A stretch of DNA of 64,000 nucleotides from Zoogloeaceae bacterium. GTDB lineage: Bacteria > Pseudomonadota > Gammaproteobacteria > Burkholderiales > Rhodocyclaceae. This document shows, in pieces, positions 425 to 48,121 of the stretch. The translations under genes were made by a program, and so were the position numbers. Location of the stretch: the NCBI GenBank assembly GCA_031287525.1, contig JAITSU010000068.1, positions 1-64,000 on the forward strand, in the 5' to 3' direction. The notes under the pieces are model-generated. The model searched no databases and had not been told where the DNA came from. It was given only the letters and a program-made list of their open reading frames with translations. The first letter of the stretch is position 1, and every line of letters starts with the position of its first letter.

Positions 425-672
425 CAGGACAATCGCATGAATGCCTTTATCATGGCAAGCCCGTCTTGTTTACGCTCTTCCCTTGTGGGTGTACATCGTG
501 GGTAAGGGGATGTTTCGTAGGGGCAGGTTTCAAACCTGCCCGCAGTGGCATTGTCGGAGCACAGGGCGGGTTTGAAACCCGCCCCTACAAGAGGCGAGGG
601 GAGAAAATCAAAGTGGCGGGAGCATCCTGCTCCCGCCACTTTGATTTCAATGGCATTCATGCAATTGCCCTG
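425..672. mobile_element. Non-autonomous inverted-repeat element (MITE-like), copy 1
   Basis: The 248-bp element has no plausible gene and is bounded by 21-bp imperfect terminal inverted repeats: CAGGACAATCGCATGAATGC at the left (425-444), and at the right (652-672) the complement of CAGGGCAATTGCATGAATGC. It is flanked by an exact 10-bp direct repeat, CGGTTTCAAC, at 415-424 and 673-682, which reads as a target-site duplication. Inside are two strong secondary structures: a 72-bp pair of GTAGGGGC(A/G)GGTTTCAAACC-type palindromes at 517-588, and a perfect 17-bp-arm palindrome at 608-644 built on GCGGGAGCATCCTGCTCCCG. Copy 2 (8551-9007) is in the opposite orientation. This element fills most of the 445-bp gap between the peroxidase and the next gene. 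Confidence 0.8.
517..588. repeat. Long cruciform-forming inverted repeat inside element copy 1
   Basis: Two palindromes, GTAGGGGCAGGTTTCAAACC... and ...GGTTTGAAACCCGCCCCTAC, are arranged so that the whole 72 bp can also fold on itself around a 20-base centre. The same structure recurs, inverted, near 8846-8914 in element copy 2. Confidence 0.8.
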
Positions 673-8481: not shown

Positions 8482-8550
8482 TACGCCGAAAACATAAAAT
8501 CATGCTTCTGCCCATTCTGAAACCCGTTTTTAACTTCAACCGTAAGGAAC

Positions 8551-9007
8551 CAGGGCAATTGCATGAATGCCATTGAAATCAAAGTGGCGGGAGCATCCTG
8601 CTCCCGCTCAGGCTGCTGACAAAGTTGCACAGAGCGTTTTTTTTGAGTGAGGTTTTCCTGGGAACGCCAGCGTCCACGCTGGCAGCGGTGTTTGTGCGGC
8701 AATCTGCGCTCAAAGTCGGCGTTCCCAGAAAGCTACTTCGGAGGTTTGTCAACAGTCTGGGCGGGAGCATCCTGCTCCCGCTGGCAGGTCACGGACAGGA
8801 GCAGGATGCTCCCGCCACTTTGATTTTCTCCCCCTCACCCCTTGTAGGGGCGGGTTTCAAACCCGCCCTGTGCTCCGACAATGCCACGGCGGGCAGGTTT
8901 GAAACCTGCCCCTACGAAATATCCCCTTACCCGCGATGTACACTCACAAGAGGAGAGCGTCAGCAAGACGGGCTTGCTATGGCAAAGGCATTCATGCGAT
9001 TGCCCTG
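8551..9007. mobile_element. Non-autonomous inverted-repeat element, copy 2, with a nested second element
   Basis: The left end carries CAGGGCAATTGCATGAATGC (8551-8570), and the right end (8987-9007) its inverted partner ending GCGATTGCCCTG. Flanks are CGTAAGGAAC (8541-8550) and AGTAAGGAAC (9008-9017), a 9-of-10 direct repeat consistent with target duplication. The body is the inverse of copy 1 (425-672): the GTTTCAAACC-type cruciform near 8846-8914 and the GCGGGAGCATCCTGCTCCCG hairpin are both present. A different 152-bp element (8609-8760) interrupts it and the hairpin motif is duplicated around that insertion, which explains the larger size. This element makes up most of the 720-bp gap before hda; no gene was found in that gap. 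Confidence 0.78.
8609..8760. mobile_element. 152-bp short inverted-repeat element, copy A
   Basis: The ends are CAGGCTGCTGACAAA and the complement of CAGACTGTTGACAAA, 15-bp terminal inverted repeats with two mismatches. The inside can form a nested hairpin: CTGGGAACGCC near the left pairs with GGCGTTCCCAG near the right, and a perfect GCCAGCGT/ACGCTGGC stem lies at the centre-left. An almost identical copy, differing by a T-run length and one compensating A, lies at 47970-48121. No target duplication is visible. Confidence 0.75.
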
Positions 9008-9202
9008 AGTAAGGAACTGAAATGAGCACAACGTTGCTGAGTCGAAGACAAGCTTACGAAAGCGATTGGCGACTTCGCGGTCTCGCCGACATCGCCTGCG
9101 TCAGCACACAAATTTTGAGGGGTTTCTTCCGTGACAGGTGGGCGAGAAATACGATCGCCAAGATACCTGATAGAATTGCGACCTTTATTTTGTTGCCCGC
9201 CC

Positions 9203-47969: not shown

Positions 47970-48121
47970 CAGGCTGCTGACAAAGTTGCACAGAGCGTTT
48001 TTTTGAGTGAAGGTTTTCCTGGGAACGCCAGCGTCCACGCTGGCAGCGGTGTTTGTGCGGCAATCTGCGCTCAAAGTCGGCGTTCCCAGAAAGCTACTTC
48101 GGAGGTTTGTCAACAGTCTGG
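47970..48121. mobile_element. 152-bp short inverted-repeat element, copy B
   Basis: Nearly identical to 8609-8760 and in the same orientation, with the same 15-bp imperfect terminal repeats (CAGGCTGCTGACAAA and the complement of CAGACTGTTGACAAA). It sits between a GCGGGAGCA-type hairpin on the left and another on the right (48122-48149), which mirrors the setting of copy A. Confidence 0.75.

Follow-up and report, generated by a model that had tools for sequence, protein, structure and literature searches.

Type II MITEs share only their ends with an insertion sequence (IS), as set out in the review PMC10969869. One example is RUP of Streptococcus pneumoniae, for which IS630-Spn1 is the proposed mobiliser (PMC2229807). 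Repeats of another kind, the GTAG-tagged repetitive extragenic palindromes (REPs) and REPINs, have also been described (PMC3733652, PMC3116915), and according to PMC10969869 the QMITE2 family of Coxiella contains a GTAG REP. The family of elements reported here joins the known type II MITEs, and what is unusual about it is a variable, REP-like interior. Like RUP and other type II MITEs, its members are short, multicopy, gene-less and hairpin-forming, with IS similarity at the ends only, whereas its partner is of the ISAs1 family rather than IS630-Spn1 and its target duplication is 10 bp. QMITE2 is a precedent for a REP sequence inside a MITE, but in the account of that review its REP matters as a target of IS1111, while here whole REP-like doublets form variable, lineage-specific modules of the interior. 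A text search of the open-access literature found no publication with these repeat sequences, and no ISAs1-driven MITE was found named in the portions of that literature searched.

The window, i.e., the whole stretch of DNA that was analysed, comprises 64,000 nucleotides from a Zoogloeaceae bacterium whose genome is a 113-contig draft of 2.75 Mb, taken to be a MAG from its fragmentation and its named relatives. Two MITE copies lie at 425-672 and 8551-9007; each has CAGGGCAATYGCATGAATGCC as its 21-bp inverted repeat and is flanked by a target duplication of 10 bp. Matches to 20 bp of this TIR occur in the window at 425-444, 653-672, 8551-8570 and 8988-9007, against a chance expectation of 0.04, and the left end of copy 1 (CAGGACAAT) has one mismatch to the TIR. 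The copies align in opposite orientation over 210 bp at 92.9% and 57 bp at 94.7% identity, with approximately 190 bp additional in copy 2 between 8608 and 8797. Inspection of the listed ORFs gave no plausible gene within either copy; ORFs 403-693 and 8625-9008 were rejected as genes, being artefacts of the palindromes. A preliminary description of this DNA had placed both copies and their 21-bp ends exactly, and it was also right that the copies are mutually inverted and contain palindromes but no gene. The parts are as follows.

415-424, no strand: left target duplication of copy 1 (CGGTTTCAAC)
425-672, plus strand: MITE copy 1, 248 bp
425-445, plus strand: TIR of copy 1 (CAGGACAATCGCATGAATGCC, one mismatch)
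517-588, no strand: REP-like doublet A in copy 1, GTAGGGGCAGGTTTCAAACCTGCCC / GGGCGGGTTTGAAACCCGCCCCTAC, inverted (self-inverted match; 58 exact cores in the genome)
605-647, no strand: hairpin B in copy 1 (AAAGTGGCGGGAGCATCCTGCTCCCGCCACTTT)
652-672, minus strand: TIR of copy 1 (CAGGGCAATTGCATGAATGCC)
673-682, no strand: right target duplication of copy 1 (CGGTTTCAAC)
8541-8550, no strand: left target duplication of copy 2 (CGTAAGGAAC)
8551-9007, minus strand: MITE copy 2 (457 bp), opposite in orientation to copy 1 and carrying the extra modules (about 190 bp) at 8608-8797
8551-8571, plus strand: TIR of copy 2
8587-8607, no strand: palindrome B, first exact copy in copy 2
8613-8755, no strand: the 143-bp module C, whose own ends, CTGCTGACAAA / TTTGTCAACAG, are imperfect (element-free copy at 47974-48116)
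8761-8781, no strand: palindrome B, second exact copy in copy 2 (inverted partner at about 8798-8820)
8844-8915, no strand: REP-like doublet A in copy 2
8987-9007, minus strand: TIR of copy 2
9008-9017, no strand: right target duplication of copy 2 (AGTAAGGAAC)

The ends are repeated well beyond the window. At up to two mismatches the 20-mer end occurs 39 times in the draft genome, against 0 for a reversed-pattern control, and the elements have the form of type II MITEs, i.e., short (248 and 457 bp), multicopy (39 ends), with TIRs and without a transposase gene. At up to one mismatch, the end is present in 12 of 21 congeneric genomes, this one included, and in 5 of 16 other genomes of the family; it is absent from all 24 genomes of other families in the order. 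Among the matches listed in a scan of named genomes, most are Zoogloeaceae or Betaproteobacteria MAGs, and the end is also found, again among the matches listed, in Accumulibacter, Propionivibrio, Sterolibacterium, Sulfuritalea, Hydrogenophilus and Candidatus Desulfobacillus. On our reading of the isolate codes, the Zoogloeaceae MAGs, and hence the genus of the window bacterium, would come from termite guts.

Insertion of these elements has left target duplications. Copy 1 is flanked by CGGTTTCAAC on both sides (10/10), and copy 2 by CGTAAGGAAC and AGTAAGGAAC (9/10). We compared 10-bp flanks in 75 complete elements with two facing ends, drawn from all fetched loci in several genomes, and 38 of them agree at 8/10 or better: 28 at 10/10, 7 at 9/10 and 3 at 8/10. 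The match in the other 37 is scattered around the random expectation, and when flank partners were shuffled approximately 0.7% reached 8/10, mainly self-pairings. The 10-bp register is the best over many copies, and the duplication length is therefore 10 bp; duplications of 7-9 bp are possible in a few elements (L020, L050, L066). The preliminary description had given 9-10 bp and had made its claim of mobility depend on whether genome copies carry such flanks: they do, exactly in 28 of 75 and at 8-9/10 in 10 more, with the length now corrected to 10 bp. Since about half of the elements have no recognisable duplication, either the duplication has been lost or recombination between copies, or assembly error, has also shaped the elements. 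Mis-assembly, or recombination between copies, is suggested by five elements of the congener G010 (L064, L068, L071, L072 and L073) that have perfect ends and lack a target duplication. At two loci of the window genome, L009 and L026 (G000:C2 near 57536 and C12 near 7726), the right end is missing its last 6 bp and the duplication about 4 bp, and these look as if one 10-bp deletion had occurred twice.

A clean empty site had likewise been proposed as a check on mobility, and it was obtained base-exactly for one own-genome copy, as a paralogue, but only at the level of the locus for copy 1 and not for copy 2. Copy C12 of the own genome (L010:1023-1520) splits a sequence that has an intact paralogue 1.4 kb away (L010:2922-3001); the two are identical at 72 of 80 positions, ungapped over the junction, with a single TTTACCTGTC at the empty site as against TTGACCTGTC and TTTACCTGTC at the filled one. 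By eye, we take the interrupted sequence to be the remnant of an ISXO2-type transposase; a 28-aa fragment of it had no family match. With this empty site and the 38 of 75 flank pairs at 8/10 or better, the family shows the target duplication on insertion that is characteristic of type II MITEs. The locus of copy 1 is syntenic in the congeners G004 and G010, where both neighbours are kept, the left side is 85% and 84% identical, respectively, and the element is absent; divergence of the short intergenic stretch there precludes a base-exact empty allele. The genes flanking copy 2 are not adjacent in either congener, and because the copy sits at this synteny break it has no empty allele. Within the interval 8482-9158 of the window, the gene to the left of copy 2 is kinase-like and that to the right DnaA/Hda-like, and it is these two that are not neighbours in G004 and G010. 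Two joined-flank searches within the genus gave no base-exact empty orthologue, and one joined-flank search returned a similar MITE end in G012 beside the insertion spot of G014.

Members of the ISAs1 family are approximately 1.2-1.5 kb long, have ends starting CAGGG and make duplications of 8-10 bp. Relatives of the window bacterium carry an IS that fits this size, end and duplication, being 1271-1301 bp long with CAGGGCAAT ends; its 21-bp ends are identical to those of the MITEs and it makes 10-bp duplications, which are exact on copies L044 and L058 (G035), L042 (G028), L083 (G030) and L059 (G010). The encoded 375-aa protein is an ISAs1-type DDE transposase, matching NF033564 at 381-396 bits (cut-off 70) as well as PF13808 and PF01609. 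Full-length members with the same ends were found in G018, G028, G030, G032 and G035, and a broken copy in G010 (L059, interrupted by a stop codon); within the genus, a full-length open copy was found only in G018, with fragments or nothing in the other genomes. Neither the NF033564 profile nor the 375-aa relative as query found an ISAs1 transposase in the window bacterium's own draft genome, which retains one relic left end of the IS (L012). Multi-copy IS often drop out of fragmented drafts, so the transposase could be missing from the assembly only. Two other long TIR pairs were considered as an autonomous element and rejected as not belonging to this family: L060 (1002 bp), which by eye holds part of an IS30-type-looking gene, and L061 (2.6 kb), which, again by eye, spans groES-groEL between two separate ends.

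The window elements share the 21-bp ends and the 10-bp duplication with the ISAs1 IS but have neither a transposase nor internal IS sequence, and they are passengers of the family rather than members of it. That they ride on an ISAs1-type element had been suggested from the window alone; the suggestion is now supported by an IS with the same ends, a full-length transposase and 10-bp duplications, although this autonomous element was found in relatives and not in the own draft genome. Mobilisation by another family, e.g., of Tn3 type as for the TIMEs, would make the ISAs1 match a coincidence, and we regard this as exceedingly improbable: no supporting point was found for it, TIMEs have ends of about 38 bp and 5-bp duplications (PMC4133298) as against 21 bp and 10 bp here, and the entire 21-bp end is common to the MITEs and the ISAs1 IS.

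The arms of the MITEs resemble the IS ends over the terminal ~21 bp only, and this confinement of similarity to the ends is again that of type II MITEs. When interiors were clustered, the IS and its deletion derivatives fell into one group. Several unrelated families were also resolved, which differ in the genomes they come from (that of the window bacterium, G010/MS502, G014, Propionivibrio, Pcl387 and others), and at least five lineages have unrelated, hairpin-rich interiors behind identical ends. Folding is predicted to be stronger in the interiors than in their flanks (-0.47 vs -0.34 kcal/mol per nt, p = 7e-13). The elements could also be type I derivatives, i.e., internal deletions of the ISAs1 IS that later decayed, with interiors of diverged IS sequence. 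There are derivatives of this kind that have the same ends and exact duplications (L131, 409 bp; L152, 564 bp), and L162, L037 and L051 cluster with the IS, but no IS sequence was detectable inside the window family or at least four others, and the interiors of the window family match standalone intergenic palindromes instead. We consider such an origin of the window family improbable.

The interior of the window family is a stack of palindromes, namely the GTAG-tipped doublet A and hairpin B, joined in copy 2 by module C. Exact core palindromes number 58 for A and 52 for B in the own genome; 20 of the 58 and 16 of the 52 lie within 600 bp of a TIR, where about one of each is expected, and the rest, approximately two-thirds, lie elsewhere, in agreement with the preliminary description, which had regarded them as scattered intergenic repeats as well. 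Thirteen A loci away from ends (up to two mismatches) were fetched, of which two reach into the right arm of the MITE and are decayed MITEs; several standalone copies match the element over the doublet alone, and the A and B palindromes are therefore independent repeats that the MITE also carries. With two inverted GTAG-tipped palindromes around a spacer, dispersed on its own in intergenic DNA, doublet A has the form of GTAG-REPs and REPINs.

This likeness raises the alternative that the elements are mosaics of REP or BIME palindromes that a RAYT (Y1 transposase) or recombination has dispersed, and in which the 21-bp ends are one more palindromic module. REP-like doublets do fill the interior and exist outside elements, and one RAYT-like Y1_Tnp gene is present in the own genome (L079 1126-1920; G000:C76). 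However, both ends of that gene overlap GGGAACGCCAAGCTCCAGCTTGGC doublets, a palindrome distinct from A and B, and no RAYT was found beside doublet A in this genome. Y1 transposases are not known to make target duplications, whereas these elements show 10-bp duplications, and the ends, which are an exact match to those of the ISAs1 IS, coincide with the boundary of the duplication. Such a mosaic is already disfavoured by the duplications together with the empty site, and we hold it to be very improbable.

We conclude that the two segments are very probably non-autonomous type II MITE copies with ISAs1 ends and a REP-like, non-IS interior, moved by an ISAs1 transposase; mobilisation in trans by this enzyme is strongly supported by sequence comparison. 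The DDE transposase would bind the 21-bp ends of whatever DNA they enclose, move the enclosed DNA and insert it via a 10-bp staggered cut, which would duplicate 10 bp at the target. The interior is a stack of REP-like palindromes (doublets A and B with the optional module C) of non-IS origin; the palindromes probably entered an older MITE by insertion or recombination, and the ISAs1 transposase would recognise the MITE ends. As the interior repeats are enclosed by mobile ends, each transposition would copy them to new sites as cargo. The mean identity of MITE copies (best HSP) is approximately 88% in the own genome vs 93.5% in G010, which suggests an older burst in the former and a more recent one in the latter; given the ~88% identity and a draft in which no transposase was found, the family now looks largely immobile in the own genome.

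Descriptions of bacterial MITEs often lack the autonomous partner, which is identified here by ends, duplication size and empty site. With identical ends and unrelated hairpin-rich interiors per species, these elements offer a clean system for the origin of type II MITE interiors, and in the window species the contents lead back to REP-like doublets that are still present as standalone repeats. If the proposed mobilisation is true, a cut-and-paste element can carry REP-type repeats to new places as its cargo. More speculatively, and with rather less than even confidence, the 21-bp ISAs1 ends may be a portable frame that is refilled again and again with the REP palindromes of a lineage, independently in several lineages of Betaproteobacteria, so that REP-like repeats could disperse through a DDE transposase as well as through RAYT.

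Two smaller observations concern individual sites. Two species, G014 (L076) and G012 (L289), have MITE ends approximately 10 bp apart in the intergenic DNA that separates a tRNA from a rhodanese-like gene, and the same spot in G011 (L290) has GTAG-tipped palindromes, with the ends absent. Within the window, module C also stands alone at 47974-48116, in intergenic DNA between B palindromes, and it is possibly a second small mobile repeat.
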